Assembly (NCBI GenBank): GCA_026645935.1
Contig: JAPKMP010000011.1
Location: forward strand, 62,001 to 126,000
Reading direction: 5' to 3'
Source of the DNA: Candidatus Villigracilaceae bacterium
GTDB lineage: Bacteria; Chloroflexota; Anaerolineae; Anaerolineales; Villigracilaceae
DNA length: 64,000 nucleotides
Positions 10,561 through 24,013 of the stretch are shown in pieces (the first letter of the stretch is position 1; each line of letters starts with the position of its first letter). The notes beneath the pieces are model-generated. The model saw only the letters and a program-made list of their open reading frames with translations, had not been told where the DNA came from and ran no database searches. The position numbers were made by a program, and so were the translations under genes.

Positions 10561-12876
10561 TTATCCGTTTCTTAACTGGTTCAAGAGCGCGCGGTAATCC
10601 TCCACGTTCGGCGGATTCATCAATACGATCTGACTGATCACATCCATAGCGCTTTGCTTGTCTCCCTTTTCGATCAGGACATCGCCCAATTGGTCGAGGA
10701 TGGGAATCGCTTCATTCGTGCGTCCCATGCGATGCAGCAATGCCGCCAATGTGCGTTTGTACACACTCTGGTCGTCATATTCGCGGACAAGTTCCTCCAT
10801 GAAGGAAAGCGCAAGGTCCTTCTTGTTCTGGTTTTCAAGATGAGTGATGTAACCCTCGAGCTCGCTCAAAGCGCGCTCTTGCTGCCCCATGCGGGTGTTC
10901 AACTCGATCAATTGCCTGCGGACAGAATCATCGTCGGGAGTCAATGTACGGATCTGCTCGAAAACACGCAAAGCCTGCTTCCAGTCCAGTCTCTGCATAT
11001 CGATGTCCGCCATGCGTTGGAGGATGTGGATATTCCAATCACGGCTGGCGCTGCCCTGCTGAACGAGGCGTAATGCGTTCGTATACGTCTTGCGCGCCAT
11101 ATCGAGTTCAGCGAGGCGGTAGTAAATGGCGGCGAGTTCAAGATGTTCCTGAATGGCATCGTCCACCTGGCCGCGCGCCACAAGTTGTTCGATCAGTCTG
11201 CTGCGCGCACCCAGGTCCATTGGCGAGATCTGGATGATGCGGCGGAACAGTTTTGTGGCTTGCAGGACTTCGCCGCGAACGCTGTAGGCATGCGCCACCA
11301 CGCTGAACTTGTTGATTGCATCGGTTGTTTGTCCCTGCTGGACAAGCAGGTCGCCCATGAGGATATGAAGCGGCAGGTAGGTGGGAGCGCTCTGGAGCGC
11401 ATCATAAGCTTCGCCCATGGCGGAACGCAGACTGCCCATGCGCGCCAGCTGGTTGATCCGGTTCATCGATTCAAGCACCGAACTGGATTGTGCCTGGAGG
11501 ATCATATCCGCCAGCGGTGCCGGGAGGCCGCCATCCGGTTTGGGCATTTGTTCGCGGACCTTATACAGCTGTTCACGCCAATCGTCCCGTAACAGAAGGT
11601 CCCTGACATTTGTGCAGACTTTGCGGAGTGTGGCTTCGTCTGTCTGGCTTTGATAGGACTCGATCAGCGGTTCATATTGCTGGCGGATGTCGTCGGCCTG
11701 TTCCGGGGGAGCGGTCATGGCATCGGCAAATTTCAAGGCTTCGAGGTATTCGGTCGCTGCCTCGCGGAATGCGCCTTTTCTTGAAATAATATCCCCGATC
11801 AACAGCCGGGACGCAAGTCCATAATCCTCATGTTTGACGGAGTTTTGAAGGACGCGCTGGGCGCTTTCGAACCGTTCCACTTTGAAGCGTAAATAACCGA
11901 GATTGAAGTACAGCGCGGAACTGCTGAACCCGGCGTTGAGCGCGGCTTCCATTTCCTCCGCCGCAAGCGAGTCGTTGCCCTTCGATTGAGCATCGATGGC
12001 TTGACCAAGATGAAGAACCACTTTAATCTGTTCGGACTGAGCCGAGAGGGAGCCGGTCCCGCGCATGATAGCGGAGATTCCCTTGCGATCCTGGGCGGCG
12101 GGACTGCTCTCATCGGAGAAATCGAAGAGTAACTCTGCCAGTTGGGTCAAAGCCTTTTGGCGCGCCTCCATGACCGGGTCCAGGCCGGAGGCGGCTTTGC
12201 TGTGAGGAACTGTCTCCAATTGCTTGACCTGCGCCATGCGGATCGGTCCCGTCCCGCCTTTGGCGCGAATCGGTTTGGGCAATAATTGTCCGGTTCTGAG
12301 CAGCGTTTGCGCCTGTTTGACTTCAGCGCTATTCGGCACGAGGGATTGCGCCTTGTTCACCATTTCCTGCGTTTTTTCCGCGTTGCCCGCGCGCTGGAGG
12401 ACGCTGGCAATGGCAAGATACTCCATTGCCGCCTGCTGGTTGTGACCGAGTTTCTCATGTACCTGCGCTAGGCGTGAATGCGCGATAGCGTGTTCGGGGT
12501 TGATGCTTGTCACATGCACCCAGTTTTGCAGCGCTTTTTCCGGATCGCGTTGTTTTAGAAATAGATCGCCCGCACGGATGGCGGCTTCCATGGCGGTCTT
12601 CAGATCGCCGACGCGTTCTGAAAGTTGCGCCACTTTTTCCATCGGCACAGGATCGTCAGGTGAAACCTTTACTGCGCGCAAATAGATCTGCAGCGCCTCA
12701 TCCACCTGGTTGAGTTGATGCAATGCCTGCCCGAGGCTGTTCAACGCCTTGGGATTGTCGGGAAATTCTTCGAGGGCGCGTCGATACGCCGCCGCGGCTT
12801 TCGGCCACTCCTGATCCCACGCAGCGGAGTGTCCCTCGTTCATGGATTTCTGAAAAATATCGTCTCGTCCGGGCAT
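10561..12876 (-). CDS. Large tetratricopeptide-repeat protein
   Basis: A 771-residue soluble protein made almost wholly of TPR helices. A first block (about 15-190) has textbook repeats such as YRRALEEFPDNPKALNSLG and YLRAVKVSPDDPVPMEKVA. A Pro/Gly-rich break comes near residue 200, then a second, more divergent array runs to the C terminus. No signal peptide or membrane segment is visible, so it is probably a cytoplasmic scaffold. No catalytic domain is seen. It is monocistronic, with polA upstream on the same strand and its own terminator. The partner is unknown. Confidence 0.8.
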   Translation of the reverse strand: MPGRDDIFQKSMNEGHSAAWDQEWPKAAAAYRRALEEFPDNPKALNSLGQALHQLNQVDEALQIYLRAVKVSPDDPVPMEKVAQLSERVGDLKTAMEAAIRAGDLFLKQRDPEKALQNWVHVTSINPEHAIAHSRLAQVHEKLGHNQQAAMEYLAIASVLQRAGNAEKTQEMVNKAQSLVPNSAEVKQAQTLLRTGQLLPKPIRAKGGTGPIRMAQVKQLETVPHSKAASGLDPVMEARQKALTQLAELLFDFSDESSPAAQDRKGISAIMRGTGSLSAQSEQIKVVLHLGQAIDAQSKGNDSLAAEEMEAALNAGFSSSALYFNLGYLRFKVERFESAQRVLQNSVKHEDYGLASRLLIGDIISRKGAFREAATEYLEALKFADAMTAPPEQADDIRQQYEPLIESYQSQTDEATLRKVCTNVRDLLLRDDWREQLYKVREQMPKPDGGLPAPLADMILQAQSSSVLESMNRINQLARMGSLRSAMGEAYDALQSAPTYLPLHILMGDLLVQQGQTTDAINKFSVVAHAYSVRGEVLQATKLFRRIIQISPMDLGARSRLIEQLVARGQVDDAIQEHLELAAIYYRLAELDMARKTYTNALRLVQQGSASRDWNIHILQRMADIDMQRLDWKQALRVFEQIRTLTPDDDSVRRQLIELNTRMGQQERALSELEGYITHLENQNKKDLALSFMEELVREYDDQSVYKRTLAALLHRMGRTNEAIPILDQLGDVLIEKGDKQSAMDVISQIVLMNPPNVEDYRALLNQLRNG

Positions 12877-12957: not shown

Positions 12958-15765
12958 TTAATCGAGAACGGTCATCTCGCCCCAATTCAAGCCGGCGCGC
13001 GCCTCGGTCTCCAATGGGATGCTCATCGGGTAGGCGTTCGCCATCGTCTCACGGACGACATCGGCTGTTTCGGAGATCTCGTTTTTCGGGACTTCCAGCA
13101 CCAGCTCATCATGCACCTGAAGGAGCATTTTCGCGCTCAAGCCGGTTTGCTTCAACGCGGGCGGGATATTTATCATTGCGATCTTCATGATATCCGCGGC
13201 CGTGCCTTGAATCGGCGCGTTGATCGCCTCCCTTTCCTCGCGGTTCTTTATCTGGACGTTGGTCCTGGTCTGCAAGACCGGGAAGTATCGCCTGCGCCCA
13301 AGCAGTGTTTCCACGTAGCCGATCTCAGCGGCTTGGCGGCGGATTCCATCCAAATATTTTTTGATGCCGGGGAATTTCCTGAAATATGCCTTGACGAAAT
13401 CCTCCGCCTCGGCGAGGGTCAGGTCCGTGGAGCGGGTTAATCCGAACGCAGACATGCCGTAGATCAAGCCGAAATTGATCGCCTTGGCATGGCGCCGCAT
13501 ATCCTTGCCAACGTTCTCCAGCGGAATGTCATAGACCGCCGCCGCTGTTGTGGCGTGAATGTCTTCTCCTGCGCGGAAGGCGGCGAGCATGGCTTCATCC
13601 TGCGCCATGTGAGCAACGATCCGCAGTTCGATCTGCGAATAATCCACAGAGAGAAGCAGGTTGCCTTTATCGGCTATAAACCCATTGCGCACCCGCCTTC
13701 CTGTTTCAGTGCGGATGGGGATGTTCTGCAGATTTGGGTTGTTGGACGAGAGCCGCCCGGTCACCGCGCCGATCTGGCTGTAGGAGGTATGGACTCGTCC
13801 TGTGTTTGGGTTGATCGCAGCGGGCAGTGCATCCACATAAGTTGATTTCAGTTTCGAGAGTTCGCGGTGTTCGAGGATGAAATCCATCACCTGATGCTGG
13901 CCGCGCATGGAGTCGAGTACATCGGCTGAGGTGGAATAAAAGCCTGTGGTGGTCTTGCGCCCCTTATCGGGCGGTTCGAGGCGTAAATGGTTGAAAAGCA
14001 CATCCGACAATTGCTGCGGTGAATTGATGTTGAAAGTCTTTCCGGCGTGAGCGTAGATTTCCTTTTCGATCTCTCCGAGGCGATTTGCCAGTTCGTTCGA
14101 CATCTGCCCGAAGAACTTTGTGTCGATCAAAGCGCCGGTCATTTCCATTTCGGCAAGGACGGGAGTGAGTGGCATGTCGATCTCATCGAGGATCTTTTGC
14201 CCGTTCACGCGCTTGAGTTCTTTTTCTTCGATGGGCATGAGTCGCAGGGTGGTCTCTGCATCGGCGGCGGCGTAATTGGCAACAGGCTCGACCGCGATCT
14301 CCGCCATGCTGACCTGTTTCTTTCCCTTGCCAATCAATTCTTCGATGTGGGTCATTTGGTCGCCCAGCCTGAACTCGGAGAGATTCTTCAAGCCCAGATT
14401 GCGCGATGATGGATCGACGATGAATTCCGCAAGCATGGTGTCGAAAGTCAACGGTGTAACGGTCAACCCGTGACGCGCCAGCACGATGTAATCGTATTTG
14501 GCGTTGTGTGCAAGTTTGCCTATAGTTTGCCTGGTCATCGCAGGGGCGAGGGCGTCGATGACCTTATCGAGCAGAAGGTTATTTCCCGACGTGTGACCGA
14601 CGGGAATGTAATATCCCTGCCCTTCCCTGACTGCGAGCGAAATGCCGACCAGGTCTGCTTTCATTTCATCGGTATCGGTGGTCTCCGTATCGAATGAAAT
14701 GACCTTGGCGTTATTCAGTTCCTGAGCAAGTTTTTTCAGCTTGTCTGTCGTATCGACGATGACGACTTCGATGTTCGACGGCCTGATCTCGACCGCGATC
14801 GGCGCGGCTTCCGCCGCGAACATGGACATCTGCCCGGCTTTGGTCTTGCCCGTTTTTGCTAATGGGGCGGAATCGGCAAAAGGCGCTGTGCCGCTGACAA
14901 CAGGGACCTTGCTCAACAGCGATTTGAATTCCATCTCTTTGAAAAAATCTTCCAGTTTCGTCCCGTCGAAAGGCTGGACCTTGGCGTGTTCGAAATCGAA
15001 CTTGATCTTCAAATCTGTTTTGATCTGCGCCAAATCGCGGCTCATGTAAGCAATGTCCTTGCTTGATTCGAATTTTCCCTGCCAGCGTTTCTCCACCTGA
15101 CCGAGATTCGCATAGATGGCATCGAGCGTGCCGAACTTCTCGAGCAGGGTGACCGCCGTCTTTTCGCCCACACCTTTCACGCCGGGGATGTTATCAGAGG
15201 TATCGCCGACGATGGCTTTATAATCCACGACCTGATTCGGGCGAACGCCGAGTTTCTTGACCACATCCGCATCGGTGACATAGGTTTGGTCGTCGCCCGC
15301 GAGATAGACAGACGTCCTTTCATTGACCAGTTGCAGTAAATCCCGGTCGCCGGTGATGATCTTGACGCCCAAGCCTTTCTCCGCAGCGATTCTTGCCACA
15401 CTGCCCAACACGTCATCGGCTTCGAAGCCGTCCATCTCGAGGCGCGGGATATTGAACAGGTCCACCATCTCACGGATGCGTGTGATCTGCGAGCGCAGGT
15501 CATCGGGCATCTTCTCGCGCGTGGCTTTGTATTCAGGGAAGATCTCATCGCGGAAAGTTTTTCCCACATCGAATGCAACAGCAAGATACTCCGGTCTTTC
15601 CTGCTCCAGCACGCGCACCAGTTCGCGCGCAAAGCCGTAAATTCCGGCTGTCGGCTCGCCCTTGGAGGTCAACCAGCGTGATACATTCCCGCCGCCAGCA
15701 GTTAGGGCGAAATACATTCGATAGGCAAGAGCGTGACCGTCGATAAGGTAAAGGGTGGGAGGCAT
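12958..15765 (-). CDS. polA: DNA polymerase I
   Basis: Repair and Okazaki-fragment polymerase of 935 residues with all three domains. The 5'-3' exonuclease (about 1-290) has YLIDGHALAYR, GFEADDVLG and GDRDLLQL. The 3'-5' exonuclease (about 335-520) keeps its metal ligands in FDTETTDTD, AHNAKYDY and YAAADAETTL, so proofreading is probably active, unlike in Thermus polymerases. The polymerase domain has motif A SVDYSQIELR, motif B RRHAKAINFGLIYG and motif C QVHDELVLEVP. The start is the ATG of MPPTLYLIDGHAL. Upstream lies a nested palindromic element, then the receiver-fusion gene. Confidence 0.97.
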   Translation of the reverse strand: MPPTLYLIDGHALAYRMYFALTAGGGNVSRWLTSKGEPTAGIYGFARELVRVLEQERPEYLAVAFDVGKTFRDEIFPEYKATREKMPDDLRSQITRIREMVDLFNIPRLEMDGFEADDVLGSVARIAAEKGLGVKIITGDRDLLQLVNERTSVYLAGDDQTYVTDADVVKKLGVRPNQVVDYKAIVGDTSDNIPGVKGVGEKTAVTLLEKFGTLDAIYANLGQVEKRWQGKFESSKDIAYMSRDLAQIKTDLKIKFDFEHAKVQPFDGTKLEDFFKEMEFKSLLSKVPVVSGTAPFADSAPLAKTGKTKAGQMSMFAAEAAPIAVEIRPSNIEVVIVDTTDKLKKLAQELNNAKVISFDTETTDTDEMKADLVGISLAVREGQGYYIPVGHTSGNNLLLDKVIDALAPAMTRQTIGKLAHNAKYDYIVLARHGLTVTPLTFDTMLAEFIVDPSSRNLGLKNLSEFRLGDQMTHIEELIGKGKKQVSMAEIAVEPVANYAAADAETTLRLMPIEEKELKRVNGQKILDEIDMPLTPVLAEMEMTGALIDTKFFGQMSNELANRLGEIEKEIYAHAGKTFNINSPQQLSDVLFNHLRLEPPDKGRKTTTGFYSTSADVLDSMRGQHQVMDFILEHRELSKLKSTYVDALPAAINPNTGRVHTSYSQIGAVTGRLSSNNPNLQNIPIRTETGRRVRNGFIADKGNLLLSVDYSQIELRIVAHMAQDEAMLAAFRAGEDIHATTAAAVYDIPLENVGKDMRRHAKAINFGLIYGMSAFGLTRSTDLTLAEAEDFVKAYFRKFPGIKKYLDGIRRQAAEIGYVETLLGRRRYFPVLQTRTNVQIKNREEREAINAPIQGTAADIMKIAMINIPPALKQTGLSAKMLLQVHDELVLEVPKNEISETADVVRETMANAYPMSIPLETEARAGLNWGEMTVLD

Positions 15766-15803: not shown

Positions 15804-15947
15804 GGAGTGTCCAATATCAAAGAATAAGAGATGTCATTGCGAGCCCGATAGGGCGAAGCAATCCCAGATTTTAGGGGAAGATTGCTTCGTCGGGCTGCCG
15901 CCCTCCTCGCAACGACATAATCTGATGTGTCGGATGTTAGACACTCC
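15804..15947. repeat. 144-bp nested inverted-repeat element (MITE/REP-like)
   Basis: Outer arms GGAGTGTC (from 15804) and GACACTCC (to 15947) enclose GTCATTGCGAG (15833-15843) and CTCGCAACGAC (15906-15916), with GAAGCAATC/GATTGCTTC inside. It sits between polA and the next gene. The inner GTCATTGCGAG...CTCGCAAxGAC pattern resembles dispersed palindromes I recognise from many bacterial genomes. That family link is from memory, not searched. Confidence 0.6.
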
Positions 15948-15972
15948 TAGAAATGGATTGAGAAATAAATCA

Positions 15973-16000
15973 AAACGCAGAGCAATTATACTCTGCGTTT
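15973..16000 (-). terminator. Intrinsic terminator of the receiver/roadblock/transposase-like gene
   Basis: AAACGCAGAG (15973-15982) and CTCTGCGTTT (15991-16000) form a perfect 10-bp stem with an 8-base loop. On the minus strand it is followed by TGATTTATTTC. It lies about 30 bases beyond the stop at 16029. Confidence 0.65.
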
Positions 16001-16028
16001 CCTAATTTAGAACTTATGTTTTAGAAAA

Positions 16029-17642
16029 TTATCGCGCAGGCGGCATGTCTTCGAGTCCCTGACGCTGGCGGGTGGTGCGGATGTAATCGCGGACGAGTTG
16101 GGGCGGGTGGGGTTGCGATCCGCCCATGATGAGATAACCGGGCGCCCAGAAATCGCCGGAGGGATTTTCCTTTTTGACGCGCGGGAACTGGCTGAAAATT
16201 TTCTCCGAAGTCTGCTGGCGCATGATGCGCATCAGGTGACCGGGGGAAGTGTTCGGCTGCACGTTCACGACCCATTGCAAATATTCGGGGCGCACGGCAA
16301 GATATTCCAGCCGCCAGCCGAAGGCGATGCAGATATTCGGAAGCCATTCACTCAGGTTATCCGAGAGGTCGCCGGTAAGGTAATGTGACGAGAAGCGCGG
16401 AATGAGCAAACAGGCATAGGTCAGGTGATACAACCCGGCAGTGATCGGTTCGGCGGTCAGTTTGCGCGCCGCTTCGGTCGTCGGGCTTTCGCGAGTCAGA
16501 TCCGTTTCGCCGGGCAGCGGCCGCGCGATGGGGGTTGCAGGCCTCGGTTTGGATCGGGACGGCGCGGTGACTTCCACATCATCGAATGCGGTCTGAGCCT
16601 TGTTCACCGGCTCGGCCTGTTTCTGTATTTTCGCGCTCGATTTCCGCGTGACGGCGGGTGAAGGTTCGCGGCTGAAAACGGACGCATCGGAAAGCGGATC
16701 GGAGACGCGGGTCTCGTTGGGATCGAAGTTTTCATTTCTGCGCGGCAGGTTGAATTCGCGGGTTGTTATCGGCTCGGGATTCGGAGCCGGGACATCCGCA
16801 AGGATATTTGAAATGGGCGGTATTTCGATCTCTTCTTCACCCAAATAATCGTCGCCCCCGCCTTGAGGCTGGTTTCGTGCCTCGGATGGATCGGTTCCGA
16901 AATCGCTCAGCAGTTTGCCCGCCTGTTTGCGGATCGTGCTGAAGGGGGTCTCGGCATCGAAGACCAGAGCCAGCACCGAGTCTGAGGTGAGGCGGGTGGC
17001 GTAGAGCATGTGCTCCGCTTTGGTGCTTTCAAGTCGGATGAAGCGCAGGAGGTCCGATCCCTTTTGTCCATCCCAGTTGCGGGTGACGGTCTGCGCCACT
17101 TCCTTTGCGGCGTTTTGCGAAAGACCGCCTGCGTAAGCCCATAGGTCGCTCCGCTGGGTGATCAACGCGGCTTGCGCCGAGGATTCCAATGTGAGGCGGG
17201 TGAGGTGCTGGGCGGCTTTGTTCGGGTCGCTGAGCCAAGGCAGATATTGCATCGTGGTCGAGGACATCGAAGCCGATGGGGAGGGGGAAGGCTGGGGCTG
17301 GCTGAGTGCGTTCATAAAGTCGGAGATCTTAAAAGGTTTGCGGACCATGATCCATGGGCGCAACGAATCGAGAGCCGGTGGCGAGCCGGATTCTTCACAG
17401 AGCAGGATCAGGTTGATGCTTCCGCTTACGGTCCGCAGGGCGATCCCGATCTCCTGCACCCAGTCCTCGCCAAGCGCGAGATCGAGCATGGCAATGGGCG
17501 CGCCGATCTGATTCGCCATTACGATGGCGGAAGCTTTATTGTTGACGACATGCACCCTGTAGAAGTTCGTATCCTCCAACGAGCGGCGGATCGATTCGCC
17601 GAGGCTGGCAGACGGGGTGACGATCATTAAATCAGCTGGCAT
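16029..17642 (-). CDS. Degenerate receiver + roadblock-like + IS200 transposase-like (HUH-less) fusion protein
   Basis: A 537-residue protein in three parts. Residues 1-112 look like a response-regulator receiver: the phospho-acceptor Asp54 (AMLDLAL) and Lys102 (VRKPF) are present, but the N-terminal acidic pair is missing. Residues about 130-248 resemble a roadblock/LC7 domain (ITQRSDLWAYAGGLS, LALVFDAE). Residues 250-400 are a disordered Pro/Ser/Glu linker. Residues 403-528 follow the IS200/IS605 TnpA fold from start to end (YHLTYACLLIPRF, SPGHLMRIMRQQTSEKIF, FWAPGYLIMGG, LVRDYIR). The HxH metal site is replaced by Tyr454-Leu-Gln456, while the equivalent of the catalytic tyrosine, Tyr520, remains. 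It is therefore probably a domesticated nucleic-acid-binding or scaffold protein, not an active transposase. No transposon ends are seen. Confidence 0.75.
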   Translation of the reverse strand: MPADLMIVTPSASLGESIRRSLEDTNFYRVHVVNNKASAIVMANQIGAPIAMLDLALGEDWVQEIGIALRTVSGSINLILLCEESGSPPALDSLRPWIMVRKPFKISDFMNALSQPQPSPSPSASMSSTTMQYLPWLSDPNKAAQHLTRLTLESSAQAALITQRSDLWAYAGGLSQNAAKEVAQTVTRNWDGQKGSDLLRFIRLESTKAEHMLYATRLTSDSVLALVFDAETPFSTIRKQAGKLLSDFGTDPSEARNQPQGGGDDYLGEEEIEIPPISNILADVPAPNPEPITTREFNLPRRNENFDPNETRVSDPLSDASVFSREPSPAVTRKSSAKIQKQAEPVNKAQTAFDDVEVTAPSRSKPRPATPIARPLPGETDLTRESPTTEAARKLTAEPITAGLYHLTYACLLIPRFSSHYLTGDLSDNLSEWLPNICIAFGWRLEYLAVRPEYLQWVVNVQPNTSPGHLMRIMRQQTSEKIFSQFPRVKKENPSGDFWAPGYLIMGGSQPHPPQLVRDYIRTTRQRQGLEDMPPAR

Positions 17643-17798: not shown

Positions 17799-18356
17799 TT
17801 ATTCATATTCCCCCGTCAGATCCTTGATTCCGAGCAGCGCCGCCAGCACTTCCGGCGGGATGTCGGCTTCGGGCAGTTCGCTCTTGTATACCTGCCCGTT
17901 TTCAGCGCGTTCCCGCAGGCTCTTCCATAACAGGTTTCGTTCCTCTCCCTCCACGACCAGATCGGTCAGCGTTTTGGCGTTGAGCAAATATTCGCCGGTC
18001 GAGTAGAGAAAGGTCAGCCGCTTCCATTTGTCTGTTTTGATGGGCTCTTTTAGTTTTTCAAGCGCCCCCAACTGGATCTTGAAATATTCTTCCTTCGCCC
18101 TTGGATGATCCGACTCATCCTTGAGCAACTCGCCTCTCGTGGTCAACTCGTGTCCCTTAGCCTGGGCGATATATTCGATCTGCCCGCCTCTTTCCCCGAA
18201 GGAACCTGGTTGGTAGAACGCTAGATAATCCACGCTGACAACTTTGGGCGCGCTGCGCAATGGAATGCGATACCAGCCGAGCAGGCGGGCGATTTCCAGA
18301 TCGCGCGGGGTGGGGAGCAGGCAGACGAGGACGAGAGAGGACGGGGAGAGGGGCAT
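17799..18356 (-). CDS. Conserved hypothetical protein (LGWYRIPL/FYQPGSFG type)
   Basis: A 185-residue soluble protein that I recognise only as a conserved hypothetical. The N-terminal half has VLVCLLPTPRDLEIARLLGW, IPLRSAPK and AFYQPGSFG. The middle has HELTTRGELLKDESDHPRA, and YFKIQLGAL is followed by WKRLTFLYSTGEYLLNA. The alternating short strands and aromatic residues suggest a compact beta-rich fold such as a PUA/EVE-like domain, but this is a guess. No catalytic motif is certain. It lies downstream of the PLP-enzyme gene on the same strand, with a small palindrome between them, so cotranscription is possible. Confidence 0.65.
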   Translation of the reverse strand: MPLSPSSLVLVCLLPTPRDLEIARLLGWYRIPLRSAPKVVSVDYLAFYQPGSFGERGGQIEYIAQAKGHELTTRGELLKDESDHPRAKEEYFKIQLGALEKLKEPIKTDKWKRLTFLYSTGEYLLNAKTLTDLVVEGEERNLLWKSLRERAENGQVYKSELPEADIPPEVLAALLGIKDLTGEYE

Positions 18357-18371
18357 GGAAGATTGGAAAGT

Positions 18372-18420
18372 AGAAAGTGGAAAGCGCCAGAGGGATTCTA
18401 ATCGCCACTTTCCACTTTCT
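18372..18420. repeat. Inverted repeat with 13-bp arms
   Basis: AGAAAGTGGAAAG (18372-18384) is the exact reverse complement of CTTTCCACTTTCT (18408-18420). It lies between the PLP enzyme and the conserved hypothetical gene. There is no T-run, so it looks more like a short dispersed palindrome than a strong terminator. Confidence 0.5.
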
Positions 18421-20844: not shown

Positions 20845-20990
20845 ACCCCCTCCCAACCTCCCCCATTTTCAAAAACCGAAAATGGGGGAGGAGAAAACGT
20901 AACTTGGGTGGTGACAAAAGTATTCATTCAAAATTTCTCTTCCCCTTCCCCCATTCATGGACTTGAATGGGGGAAGGACGGGATGGGGGT
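20845..20990. repeat. Composite palindromic element with two hairpins
   Basis: CCTCCCCCATTTTC (20857-20870) pairs with GAAAATGGGGGAGG (20878-20891), and CCTTCCCCCATTCA (20944-20957) pairs with TGAATGGGGGAAGG (20964-20977). The outer ends ACCCCCTCCC and GGGATGGGGGT are also roughly complementary. It fills the gap between the DUF559 and TIR-STAND genes and touches both. It looks like a dispersed REP-type unit. Confidence 0.6.
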
Positions 20991-23900
20991 CAAGACCCCT
21001 CCACCGCCTTCCTCACCTCTTTCAAAATCTCCCCGCCTTCGCATTTCATCAACTCATCGAACAACCGCAACACGGACTTGACCACCCCCGCATGTGGCGC
21101 AATCTTCCGCGCAGACTTAAATATCTCAATTGCCTCGGCATGGAGTTTATCCCTCTCGCCATCCAATCTCCAATTACCAATTACCAACAACCCGCACAAC
21201 GCCAACCCCTTCGCATCCAGTGCATCATAATACTCCGCTGTCTTGGACAGGATCTCATCCGCCTGCCCAATCGCGCGGACAAAGGCTCCCCGTGCCGCGA
21301 CCTCATCCCCCTGCCGCAAGGCGATGATTCCGTGCAGGGCGCTGGCATTGTGGTTGTTTTGCGGCACATCATATCCCAGCGCGGCTTCGATGGTGGCGCG
21401 GGCGTTGACCAAATCATTTTGGAAAAGATAAGCCTGCGCTTTACCCCAATGAGATTCAAGTTGCATCTGAGGGCTTGATATTTCTTTACCAATTTGAACA
21501 GATTGAAAAAATTTTTCTATGGCGTTCTGGATATCTTCAATTTCGAGTAATGCAGTACCTATATTCAACAGGCTAATACCTTCACCTACACGGTCGCCAA
21601 TTTTGCTTTCAATCGCCAGGGCTTGTTCATAGAATTCAATGGCTTTGCGGGCATCACCAAAAATTTTGTATGCATTACCAAGGTTGCCGAGACGGTTTCC
21701 TTCACCTCTTTGATCTCCAATTTCACGGGAAATAACTAACGCTTGCTCATAGTACTCGATGGCTGTACGTGTGTCGCCTAAATAATTGTATTCAATTCCA
21801 AGGCTGCTGAGCCATACACCTTCTCCTTGGCGGTTTTTGGTTTCTCGTGCTATGCCAAGTGCTCTTTTATAATTTGAGATGGCTTCTTTGACTTTCCCAA
21901 TTGAACTCAATGCATGTCCCAGATTTCCTATGCTTTGACTTGCAAGTGATGTTTCTTTGATTTTTCCTTGCAACTTTTCATGCAAATCAATCATCAAGCG
22001 ATAATGCCCCCACAAAAACAGGTAATCAAAATCAAATTCGCGCAACACACTCGCCGCCGTATCATAATCGCCAGCGGCACAGCGCAGGTCAAATTCCGCC
22101 AGTTGCGCGGAAAGGTCTTCCAGTTTTTTCCATTCCGCGCGGGGCTTGCGGGCGGCGGCGAAATAGTCTGCTGCTCGTAAAGTTAGTTCATGTCGGGTAA
22201 ATAGTAAATGGTAATTGGTAAATGTGGGTTGACGCTTGGCGAAGAATGATTGGAGCAACTTCCTTTGCTCTTCCTTTGTGTCCTTAGTGTCCTTTGTGTT
22301 GGAATCTTTTTCAGGAATTAAACTCAGAGCAAACTCCCTGTCCACAGGATGTAAATAAAACCGTCCGCTTTCCTTGCGCGCAAAGTGCATATTTGCCAGC
22401 CGCTGCAAAATCAGCGCGCTGTCCATCGCGGGCAGGTGCGGCGCGAGCAGGTAGTCCACGGCGGCGGGCGTCACGGGGCGGTTATAGACCGCCAGCACCT
22501 GCATCACCTTTTGCGCGTTCGTGTCCAAACGGTTGAAGGCTTCGCCCACCAGCGCCTCCACCACGTTGACGGGCGTGGGCATGGCGAGCAGTTCAGCGAG
22601 CGTCGTATATCGGTCAGAAGCCAGGATGGCAAACAGCGCTTCCAACGCGCGCGGGAAACCCAGCGTCCGCTCGCAGGCGCGCCCCAGCGCTTCATCCGTC
22701 CCCGATTTCAGCCCCAACTTCCCGTCCACATCCATTTCGCGCAGCATTTCGACGGCGTATTTCTGCTCCAAGCCGCTGTCGAGCGTCAACACGCGCTGCC
22801 TGCCAGGCTCGCACAGGTTCAGTCCGCGCGGGGCGACGCGCGTGGTCAGGATGACCTTCAACGCGCTGTGCGCTCCATGCAGCAGGGCGCGCAGGCATTC
22901 ATCCAGTTCTGTGTCGGCGATGTCGAAGGTCTCGACGCTGATGAGCGGTTCGACGTTATCCAACAGCAACACCACCTTCCCCGCCGTGAACCTGTCCAAC
23001 AGCGCGCTCATCTTCGACGCCGTGCTCGCCTGCGGATTTTTATAGACCGCGTCCAGCGCGTTAGCGGCATCCGCGGGCAGGAGTTTGCACAGGTCATAAA
23101 ACAGATTGGCGAAATTGACGCGGTGACTGCCGCTCTCGCTGAGATAGACGATTCCCTCCACCCGCATCCTGCCCAGCCCATCTGGAAGTTCGCCTCCCTC
23201 CAGACCTTTCAACAGCCTGCACACCATCGCCGTTTTCCCCACCCCTCCGCGCCCGACGATGGTCATCACCCGCTGCGAGTCGTCGTTGAGGAAACGCAGA
23301 ATTTCCTTTGTTTCATCAAAACGGTCTTGGAAATATATTGGCGAAATTCCAGGGGGCGGATTGATAAACTTTGTGAATGTTTTAGCAGCAACAGGCTTTT
23401 CAGGATTACGCTCACGCTCCAAACCCGCTTCGATATTCTTCTGCGTCTGTTCTTCTGCGGCTTTGGGGTCATCCGCTATTTTTTTCTGCGCTTCAATTTG
23501 TTTCTTTAGTTCGTCAACGTCCGCTTGAATACGTTTTTCTTCATCGCCTTTTGCACGGCGTAATTCATGCTCGGCATCCCCAAGAAGATATTGCAATTCC
23601 CTCAAAACACCTTCGGGCTCATTCAATTCTCTCAGGAATTTTCGCAGTTTTGCGATTCCAGTATCAAAGTCTTCTGTGAAATCGATCCATTCGCGTGTGC
23701 CAAGCAGAAAAGGCTGTTCCGCCTTCTTTTGGATCAAAAGGGGAACGATGGGCTTTTTATATCGGAGTGCAAATGTGAGTTCTGTTTTGCAATTGGAGGC
23801 AGGCTTCGTGCTGTCTTCCGTAATTAGGAAGAGAACGCATTTGCTGGATTTAATGGCTTCGACGATTTGGCTGTCCCACTCATACGAAGGAGTTAAATCC

Positions 23901-24013
23901 GCCTTGTCATACCATACCGCATGAGGCGGGTCGCCGCCTTCCAACTCGTCCCTGAGTCTGCGCGTGAAATCCAGTCCGTCATGTGTGGAATAACTGATGA
24001 AGCAATGGCTCAT
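20990..24013 (-). CDS. TIR-STAND NTPase-TPR protein, probable anti-phage defence
   Basis: A 1007-residue multidomain protein. The TIR domain (1-130) starts CFISYSTHDG, has VWYDKADLTPSYEW, and keeps the candidate NADase glutamate Glu78 in CKTELTFAL. A charged coiled coil covers about 140-205. The STAND/NB-ARC ATPase has Walker A GRGGVGKT (254-261), Walker B VVLLLDN (347-353) and sensor ILTTR. Winged-helix-like and linker sequence follows. The C-terminal third holds TPRs with about 40-residue spacing (AIEYYEQALVISREIGDQRG). Known relatives sense a phage or stress signal through the repeats, oligomerise, and deplete NAD+. Function here is inferred from architecture. Base composition is uneven: the NTPase core is GC-rich and the TPR part clearly AT-richer. 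Confidence 0.88.
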   Translation of the reverse strand: MSHCFISYSTHDGLDFTRRLRDELEGGDPPHAVWYDKADLTPSYEWDSQIVEAIKSSKCVLFLITEDSTKPASNCKTELTFALRYKKPIVPLLIQKKAEQPFLLGTREWIDFTEDFDTGIAKLRKFLRELNEPEGVLRELQYLLGDAEHELRRAKGDEEKRIQADVDELKKQIEAQKKIADDPKAAEEQTQKNIEAGLERERNPEKPVAAKTFTKFINPPPGISPIYFQDRFDETKEILRFLNDDSQRVMTIVGRGGVGKTAMVCRLLKGLEGGELPDGLGRMRVEGIVYLSESGSHRVNFANLFYDLCKLLPADAANALDAVYKNPQASTASKMSALLDRFTAGKVVLLLDNVEPLISVETFDIADTELDECLRALLHGAHSALKVILTTRVAPRGLNLCEPGRQRVLTLDSGLEQKYAVEMLREMDVDGKLGLKSGTDEALGRACERTLGFPRALEALFAILASDRYTTLAELLAMPTPVNVVEALVGEAFNRLDTNAQKVMQVLAVYNRPVTPAAVDYLLAPHLPAMDSALILQRLANMHFARKESGRFYLHPVDREFALSLIPEKDSNTKDTKDTKEEQRKLLQSFFAKRQPTFTNYHLLFTRHELTLRAADYFAAARKPRAEWKKLEDLSAQLAEFDLRCAAGDYDTAASVLREFDFDYLFLWGHYRLMIDLHEKLQGKIKETSLASQSIGNLGHALSSIGKVKEAISNYKRALGIARETKNRQGEGVWLSSLGIEYNYLGDTRTAIEYYEQALVISREIGDQRGEGNRLGNLGNAYKIFGDARKAIEFYEQALAIESKIGDRVGEGISLLNIGTALLEIEDIQNAIEKFFQSVQIGKEISSPQMQLESHWGKAQAYLFQNDLVNARATIEAALGYDVPQNNHNASALHGIIALRQGDEVAARGAFVRAIGQADEILSKTAEYYDALDAKGLALCGLLVIGNWRLDGERDKLHAEAIEIFKSARKIAPHAGVVKSVLRLFDELMKCEGGEILKEVRKAVEGS
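21162..21187. repeat. Short TTGGTAATTGG-type repeat inside the STAND gene
   Basis: On the coding (minus) strand this stretch reads TTGGTAATTGGTAATTGGAG and onward, a low-complexity direct repeat encoding VIGNWRLD near the C terminus. It resembles the repeat at 22196-22225 in the same gene. Confidence 0.4.
22196..22225. repeat. TTTACCAATTACC-type repeat inside the STAND gene
   Basis: On the minus strand this reads as tandem variants of TTTACCAATTACCATTTAC and encodes the segment FTNYHLLFTRH. The run of near-identical 7-9 base units is unlike the surrounding GC-rich coding sequence. Confidence 0.45.
22272..22300. repeat. ACACAAAGGACAC-type repeat inside the STAND gene
   Basis: On the minus strand AACACAAAGGACACTAAGG and a further ACACAAAGGAA encode NTKDTKDTKE, a hydrophilic linker. 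The unit resembles dispersed intergenic repeats and keeps the reading frame open. Confidence 0.5.

Follow-up and report, generated by a model that had tools for sequence, protein, structure and literature searches.

What can a transposase fold do for a cell once it can no longer cut DNA? The question is raised by a gene on the minus strand (positions 16029 to 17642) of a 64,000-nucleotide stretch of a Candidatus Villigracilaceae genome (Chloroflexota; contig JAPKMP010000011.1, positions 62,001 to 126,000), the whole of which is called the window here. The product of the gene, P0001, joins a receiver, a roadblock domain and a long linker to a domain of the IS200/IS605 transposase TnpA (the Y1 domain) in which the metal site is lost. 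A whole clade has lost the cutting site, and still the conservation of the domain exceeds that of DNA polymerase I, which is encoded next to it. The reading that we favor, with a probability of roughly 0.5, is that P0001 is a regulatory or scaffold protein linked to PolA that contains a domesticated, catalytically dead TnpA module; this reading rests on comparisons of sequence, predicted structure and gene neighbourhood. The locus makes two questions testable, namely what role a TnpA fold unable to cut can have, and whether these bacteria assist or regulate their DNA polymerase I with a factor that is absent from the textbook organisms. It suggests that the cell has taken an ancient enzyme of a mobile element into its own service.

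Anatomy of P0001 and identity of its Y1 domain

The features of the gene, all on the minus strand, are as follows.

16029..17642, minus: P0001 gene, an open reading frame of 537 residues (receiver, roadblock, linker, predicted dead Y1 domain)
17289..17642, minus: degenerate receiver domain, residues 1-118; Asp54 and Lys102 kept, Thr9-Pro10 replacing the acidic pair
16893..17246, minus: Roadblock/LC7 (MglB-like) domain, residues 133-250; profile and Foldseek matches
16461..16892, minus: long linker (residues 251-394), the least conserved part and predicted to be disordered
16053..16436, minus: IS200/IS605 TnpA (Y1) domain, predicted to be catalytically dead, residues 403-530; profiles, alignment and model
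16275..16283, minus: place of the HxH metal site, Tyr454-Leu455-Gln456; alignment
16071..16085, minus: residues 520-524, with Tyr520 where TnpA has its catalytic Tyr and Thr524 where it has the Gln of Y---Q; alignment

A preliminary description of the gene had proposed that its last domain is of the IS200/IS605 TnpA type, and the profile searches bear this out. The Pfam model Y1_Tnp matches residues 405-522 with an expectation (E) value of 2.2e-12 (47.6 bits against a cut-off of 23), and the NCBIfam model transpos_IS200 (NF033573, cut-off 55) gave 54.9 bits with the whole of P0001 and 58.8 bits with its last 135 residues. When the domain was compared with the PDB by phmmer, six entries (2fyx, 2ec2, 2xm3, 2xma, 2xo6 and 2f4f) matched with E values of 7.1e-10 to 2.5e-7; all are Y1 transposases, and nothing else fell below E 0.1. 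The Y1 part of the first full-length model was poor, with a predicted local distance difference test score (pLDDT) of about 40-65, and the domain was refolded alone with TnpA relatives in the alignment, which gave a pLDDT of 88 and a predicted template modelling (TM) score of 0.81. The refolded model superposed on 2ec2 with a Z score of 16.4 and a root-mean-square deviation (rmsd) of 1.7 over 109 aligned residues. Ranks 1-16 of the structure ranking were occupied by Y1 proteins, the sixteenth being a REP transposase (Z 8.2), and the first non-Y1 chain among the matches listed scored Z 7.0. P0001 thus has both the fold and the profile of the family; because TnpA sequences were present in the alignment of the model, the fold match is partly built in and is supporting evidence, and the independent evidence for the identity of the domain comes from the Pfam, NCBIfam and phmmer matches.

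The receiver-like domain, described earlier as having Asp54 and Lys102 and no acidic pair, was likewise confirmed. Response_reg (PF00072) was found in 29/50 aligned relatives at E<=0.5 (best 3.8e-7) and was not matched by P0001's own sequence at that threshold. The receiver profile of the family matched receiver chains in the PDB, the P0001 receiver model superposed on YycF (Z 17.0, rmsd 2.1, 116 residues aligned), and the VIA structure listing for the full-length model contained only receivers among the matches listed. Fold and profile are therefore those of a receiver. In an alignment of 84 rows, Asp54 and Lys102 are invariant among the rows reaching each position (73/73 and 75/75, respectively), whereas the acidic pair for Mg2+ after strand 1 is replaced by Thr9-Pro10 in P0001; one acidic residue survives in some far members. 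Several near relatives, L083, L084 and L086 among them, are without any receiver.

By fold and by profile, the second domain is of the Roadblock/LC7 (MglB-like) type, again in agreement with the preliminary description. The eight best PDB matches of its profile, which are all those below E 0.01, are MglB (best E 1.4e-5), and Foldseek aligned the region with MglB at E 1.8e-5 (TM score by target 0.68, rmsd 2.7). The Pfam model Robl_LC7 did not reach the roadblock domain of single family sequences. With the full-length model, Foldseek ranked chains of the Rag GTPase heterodimer at the top (E 4.4e-8, rmsd 18, 320 columns), followed by receivers and MglB. A Rag GTPase chain consists of a G domain and a roadblock domain, and we take these long matches to be a superposition of the modelled receiver on the G domain, plus the roadblock. 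The long linker ahead of the Y1 domain, also noted before, has a pLDDT mostly below 50. The linker of a receiver-roadblock protein that has no Y1 domain (L154:4799-6151) contains RKTGEL/RKTGDL repeats, which are possible kinase or FHA motifs. At another locus (L152, 5965-7518), receiver, roadblock and Y1 domain lie in three overlapping open frames, which may represent a frameshifted copy or an assembly error.

Loss of the catalytic site in a conserved domain

The residues of the active site were surveyed in an alignment in which 142 homologues (83 near, 38 far and 21 standalone) were added to 54 canonical TnpAs from viral contigs. Four rows that were cut or lay in short frames (L134, L139, L152 and L155) were assigned to the far group manually. 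The canonical enzymes carry a complete HxH in 53/54 cases, the Tyr in 54/54 and the Gln of Y---Q in 53/54. A looser count on 59 of those viral TnpAs (60 had been selected, and one was dropped because it contained a stop) found HxH in 58 and Y---Q in 57. The segment EYLQWV of P0001 aligns with PDHVHL of TnpA, so that Y454 and Q456 stand at the two HxH places, and T524 stands at the place of the Gln four residues past the Tyr; neither the HxH pair nor the Y---Q motif is present. In each of the 83 near orthologues the HxH and catalytic Tyr places are occupied by Tyr, Gln and Tyr, none has a complete HxH, and the Gln of Y---Q (0/83) is replaced by Thr (74), Ile (7), Val (1) or Ser (1). The far homologues also have no complete HxH (0/38); a single His is found in 9/38 and the Gln of Y---Q in 5/38. 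Among the standalone paralogues, one of the 21 (L168) has HxH, and it has Phe at the Tyr place. An intact catalytic set was thus found in 0/142 homologues of this survey. The loss of the metal site proposed in the preliminary description is conserved, and the two outcomes it had named as contrary to its reading were looked for and did not appear, since the Y1_Tnp profile matches and no homologue has the catalytic set. As judged from these alignments, the Y1 domain of P0001 is catalytically dead, with all metal ligands lost.

The fate of Tyr520 was different. It does align with the catalytic Tyr, as had been claimed, but the significance attached to its retention did not stand. It is fixed in the near orthologues only, and the far homologues have Phe (30/38) more often than Tyr (6/38) at this place. 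The position is therefore best regarded as an aromatic one with no sign of residual catalysis, and we rejected the presence of Tyr520 as an argument for a residual nucleophile.

Despite the loss of the site, the domain is under strong constraint. Compared with 68 full-length orthologues, the Y1 domain has the highest median identity of the four parts (87%), followed by the roadblock (84%), the receiver (61%) and the linker (52%); the neighbouring PolA has a median identity of 78% (58 loci). The ratios of nonsynonymous to synonymous polymorphism (pN/pS) are 0.335 (receiver), 0.158 (roadblock), 0.433 (linker) and 0.135 (Y1 domain). Because the Y1 domain is more conserved than PolA, it is expected to have a job, one that works without cutting.

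The protein is not mobile. Its own genome has a single full-length copy, the place of the gene is conserved across genomes, and no relatives were found in viral contigs; beyond the hairpin described below, no systematic search for element ends was made. Judged by this fixed place, P0001 appears to be inherited vertically. Relatives, whole or in pieces, are present in 36/37 same-genus genomes searched, and the 80 loci kept of the 124 that encode a relative are all from Chloroflexota. In a sample of the order, strong receiver-roadblock matches (E<1e-41) were listed for 27/27 genomes of the window's family and for 50/124 of the others, so that every sampled member of the family has a P0001-type protein and its distribution in the rest of the order is patchy. 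A Y1 profile of the near orthologues matched 18/248 genomes of a class sample, 17 of them within the order. Beyond the class, the Y1 matches in a phylum sample of 251 genomes were mostly short and sometimes multi-copy and, as expected, look like ordinary IS200 transposases. One sequence outside the order (G078:C18:7961-8737) has a roadblock match followed by a weak Y1 match with an internal stop, a possible diverged fusion.

Four other Y1 proteins of the same genome matched above the cut-off. Three retain an intact HxH (L003, DHFH; L004, DHLH; L005, THAH), and the fourth (L002) is a dead paralogue. A tree of the domain (132 columns and 89 rows, with a sixth of the near rows and roughly a third of the TnpA rows; a short alignment and a quick search) placed all dead Y1 domains apart from TnpA with a support of 100, and 20 standalone proteins (support 97) nested beside the window's group (support 95). 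The standalone loci (L157-L176, n=20, 19 anchored) include one in the same genome (L171:5568-6086). A Mrr-type nuclease, a tetratricopeptide repeat (TPR) protein, a histidine kinase and a response regulator lie nearby in 11-12 of the 20, and a DUF1521 protein, MotA, MotB, FliL and FliM lie beside the gene in 4/20. The nuclease, TPR protein, kinase, DUF1521, MotA and MotB were each verified with Pfam in a single example, and FliL, FliM and the response regulator were named by eye. From the nesting in the tree and these loci, the standalone proteins seem to have arisen as copies of the dead Y1 domain of the fusion, the reverse of transposon capture, and it appears that dead transposase domains of this kind spread to serve in regulation. 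The Mrr-like nuclease that adjoins one of the dead-Y1 proteins (L164:6124-6972) has a PADLOC match (E 2e-26) to PDC-S02, a candidate defence family; a PADLOC scan of P0001 itself gave no match.

Linkage to polA and the hairpin at the junction

The preliminary description had mentioned neither polA, nor the conserved hairpin next to it, nor the dead paralogues. Downstream of the P0001 gene the window contains the following features.

15972..16001, minus: hairpin CGCAGAG/CTCTGCG with loop TATAATTG and T-rich tail, between the P0001 gene and polA
12958..15765, minus: polA, DNA polymerase I, 935 residues, conserved downstream neighbour; DNA_pol_A E 2.2e-154
10561..12876, minus: TPR-repeat protein, 771 residues, next gene after polA

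Neighbouring genes were clustered for the window and 95 further loci with an anchored gene; four more loci could not be anchored. Downstream and on the same strand, polA is found in 87/96 loci, and by simple gene calling it is the next gene in 79. Nine loci are without it, and four of these (L060, L078, L092 and L108) have less than 1.6 kb of contig remaining. The linkage extends to the far loci, 16/17 of which have polA, with 12 within 130 bases or overlapping and the others at 182, 649, 2718 and 2885 bases. Among 20 further loci of the order, polA is present in 19, the exception being L227. The runners-up among shared clusters are the TPR gene (64/96 loci, 6/17 far) and a gene of 185 codons (31/96, 0/17 far). 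The far loci are reached by only three of the 25 largest neighbour clusters listed, namely polA, the TPR gene and one minor cluster (1/17).

Receiver-roadblock genes without a Y1 match also adjoin polA, in four members of the order (L150, L153, L154 and L239) and in 4/20 loci outside it (L207, L209, L212 and L214). The Y1 profile used on the further loci of the order was built with one over-long row, and only matches near its positions 250-419 were counted as Y1. The simplest reading of these genes is that the receiver-roadblock protein came first and that the Y1 domain joined it later; the alternative would be loss of the Y1 domain in some lines.

Between the two genes, on the minus strand from 16001 to 15972, lies the hairpin CGCAGAG-TATAATTG-CTCTGCG with its T-rich tail. 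It is the sole match to CGCAGAG N4-12 CTCTGCG in its genome. A control pattern also occurs once per strand, so that the bare stem is near the control level (one versus one) and its presence in the genome says little; the argument rests on its place and its loop. The exact stem GCAGAG..CTCTGC is found within 200 bases past the stop codon in 54/80 near loci, 46 of them with a TATAAT loop, against 0.02 loci expected from mononucleotide shuffles. Several of the 26 near loci without the exact stem have variants with a mismatch or a compensated change, such as GCGGAG/CTCCGC in L102, L110 and L094. The compensated changes are A-T to G-C and C-G to T-A. At each of ten positions, 18 to 21 of the 21 distinct arm pairs are matched, a count that leans towards pairing because the loop length was fitted. 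Such arms flank 56/59 of the TATAAT sites after the gene or before polA, compared with 70/313 of all TATAAT sites of the loci on either strand, the hairpin element included. The flanks of the hairpin are hardly conserved, and the T-run is conserved. The most shared inverted 6-mer past the P0001 gene occurs in 53/79 loci, and the best one after other genes in 7/66 (polA), 5/45, 4/30, 6/27 and 8/26. The TATAAT-loop hairpin was found once each in 13/19 same-genus genomes, always beside the gene, and in none of the remaining 18 of the 31 genomes searched.

The hairpin seems to go with polA. All seven near loci without polA and with at least 60 bases past the stop lack the stem. At L362, in the genome of L089, where the P0001 gene lies elsewhere, the hairpin stays before polA with one G-T pair. 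It looks like a cis element of polA in the window's family. The element could act as a terminator overlapping the promoter of polA, or a hairpin-binding protein could recognise it. A right-end relic of a transposase gene is unlikely, as the hairpin of L362 remains with polA, and a generic terminator or REP element is unlikely in view of the copy counts and the inverted 6-mer control. TACAAT boxes shortly before polA in L146, L147, L233, L235, L240, L243 and L363, several with TG one base earlier, look like the -10 element of polA where the hairpin is absent. A second perfect inverted repeat, with 10 bp arms and a 16 nt spacer, lies between the gene and polA at window positions 15854-15889.

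Possible role of the dead domain

Our favored reading of P0001 as a PolA-linked regulatory or scaffold protein could work as follows. The dead Y1 domain would most likely serve in recognition, either of structured single-stranded nucleic acid, as the preliminary description had suggested, or of a partner bound there. In the window's family the hairpin at the polA junction would be the natural candidate site. The receiver and roadblock would supply regulation, and the parts together would tune the expression or use of DNA polymerase I. P0001 is probably a dimer, because roadblock and TnpA domains both form dimers in known structures. We infer dimerisation, nucleic-acid binding and the effect on PolA from the nature of the domains and their place.

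Several observations weigh against this reading. No polA lies downstream in L089, L107, L115, L116 and L148 despite room there; it is 2.7-2.9 kb away in two far loci, and was not seen in 16/20 receiver-roadblock loci outside the order. Going by receiver-roadblock matches, about half of the order is without a P0001-type protein. Of the three genomes in which the gene lies elsewhere and the stretch before polA can be read, one (L362) has the hairpin there and two (L361 and L363, genomes of L092 and L107) do not, L361 keeping TATAAT. The T-run and TATAAT fit a plain terminator followed by a promoter. Four near-invariant basic positions of TnpA (418, 419, 483 and 492) are absent from the P0001 family. 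Finally, the exact stem was found after 0/42 other Y1 genes scanned, mostly far homologues, and in many far families the gene overlaps polA or stops a few bases short of it, leaving no room for a hairpin. The Y1 domain therefore cannot have had this hairpin as its ancestral target, and we rejected that idea.

One alternative is that the hairpin only terminates transcription of the gene, shares bases with the -10 box of polA and has nothing to do with the Y1 domain, and we give it a little less than an even chance. It would account for the conserved T-run, for the TATAAT or TACAAT just before polA in several stem-less far loci, for the hairpin left with polA in L362 and for the stem-less TATAAT that precedes polA in L361. 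It fits less well with the fixed letters of the stem (53/79 versus at most 8/26 elsewhere), as terminators require structure and not sequence, and with the stems kept where the loop is without TATAAT (L054, L069, L080, L085, L087 and L111). A more doubtful alternative is that the Y1 domain has moved off nucleic acid altogether and that its fold is kept only for dimerisation or protein binding within a signalling scaffold, with PolA or a small GTPase as the partner bound by its highly conserved surface. The metal site and the Tyr are dispensable in homologues, extreme conservation suits a protein interface, and besides the four lost basic positions the median net charge of the domain falls from +6 in TnpA to +4 in near and +1 in far homologues. 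On the other hand, basic positions 416, 475, 490, 518 and 525 are retained in the family, and Arg or Lys is newly fixed at 444, 451, 472, 481, 488 and 491 in the near orthologues.

It is still less probable that P0001 is a small-GTPase signalling protein like RomR/MglB, whose roadblock meets an MglA-like GTPase and whose proximity to polA reflects co-transcription only. The MglB matches of the roadblock profile would suit such a protein, as would the seven Arf-type matches of its genome at E<=0.01 (two above the cut-off) and the two separate Robl_LC7 proteins there; links of receiver, roadblock and GTPase are known from Myxococcus and from actinobacterial conservons, according to excerpts of PMC4316618. 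No GTPase was found among the eight window neighbours scanned, however, and the short list of clusters that reach the far loci, given above, also speaks against it. As for an IS200/IS605 or REP-type element that is still mobile or was captured recently, we consider it extremely improbable, even with the TnpA profile match and with a hairpin soon after the stop codon, as at the right end of such elements. There is no catalytic set, a single full-length copy sits in a conserved place, no relative was found in viral contigs, the TATAAT-loop hairpin occurs at most once per genome, and in L362 it stays with polA. The idea of an active or mobile transposase was rejected because the metal ligands are lost, the position is fixed and the viral contigs yielded no relative.

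P0001 shares with the IS200/IS605 TnpAs (IS608, ISDra2; subclass 1.1) the whole-domain fold, a gap-free alignment through the HxH strand and an aromatic residue at the Tyr place. It differs from them in having neither HxH nor the Gln of Y---Q, in being fused behind a receiver and a roadblock, and in occupying a fixed place, usually adjoining polA, without being mobile. Excerpts of Quentin et al. (2018, PMC6006769) give the Y---Q motif as the signature of subclass 1.1, state that all TnpA-Y1 members have the HuH/Y core for cleavage and that REP types are flanked by REP sequences, and report that unexpectedly long proteins, including fusions, were discarded. The TnpA-REP proteins (RAYTs) resemble P0001 as host-kept TnpA relatives outside a transposon, but the site of P0001 is predicted to be dead and its hairpin is not repeated; in a genome-wide count that covered this hairpin, the TATAAT-loop form was never multi-copy, unlike flanking repeats of the REP kind. 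P0001 therefore falls outside both the active IS200/IS605 transposases and TnpA-REP by their defining features, yet it shares their fold. To our knowledge, the domesticated TnpA relatives (TnpA-REP) keep their cutting site. The MglB and RomR/MglA/MglB polarity modules have a roadblock that P0001 matches in sequence and structure, and they combine receiver and roadblock in one pathway; P0001 differs in being one polypeptide with a degenerate receiver, a putatively dead TnpA domain and linkage to polA, and in having no GTPase among the window neighbours scanned.

TldR proteins arose from nuclease-dead TnpB, the partner protein of TnpA. Like the P0001 family, TldR is transposon-derived and without nuclease activity, and it was kept as a regulator; it differs in being derived from TnpB and RNA-guided, the module of P0001 coming from TnpA. 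In the abstract of PMC13418256, TldRs are described as transcription factors of the TnpB family with no nuclease activity. A bolder proposal, possible but unlikely, is that P0001 belongs to a TnpA counterpart of TldR: part of the order would long have used a dead-Y1 clade as a non-cutting recognition module, which in the window's family would act within a receiver-roadblock regulator of PolA on the polA-promoter hairpin and which would later have been copied into Mrr/two-component and flagellar mot-fli loci. Among the matches listed in the open literature (titles and openings of abstracts), there was no account of a receiver-roadblock-dead-Y1 protein.

Two further features of the window lie upstream of the P0001 gene. 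Inverted repeats of 13 bp, perfect and built on AGAAAGTGGAAAG, occupy positions 18364-18420, just upstream of the gene of 185 codons (17799-18356, minus strand). At 20990-24013, also on the minus strand, is a gene for a protein of 1007 residues with TIR, NACHT/NB-ARC-like ATPase and TPR parts, a candidate immune or signalling protein of the STAND type.

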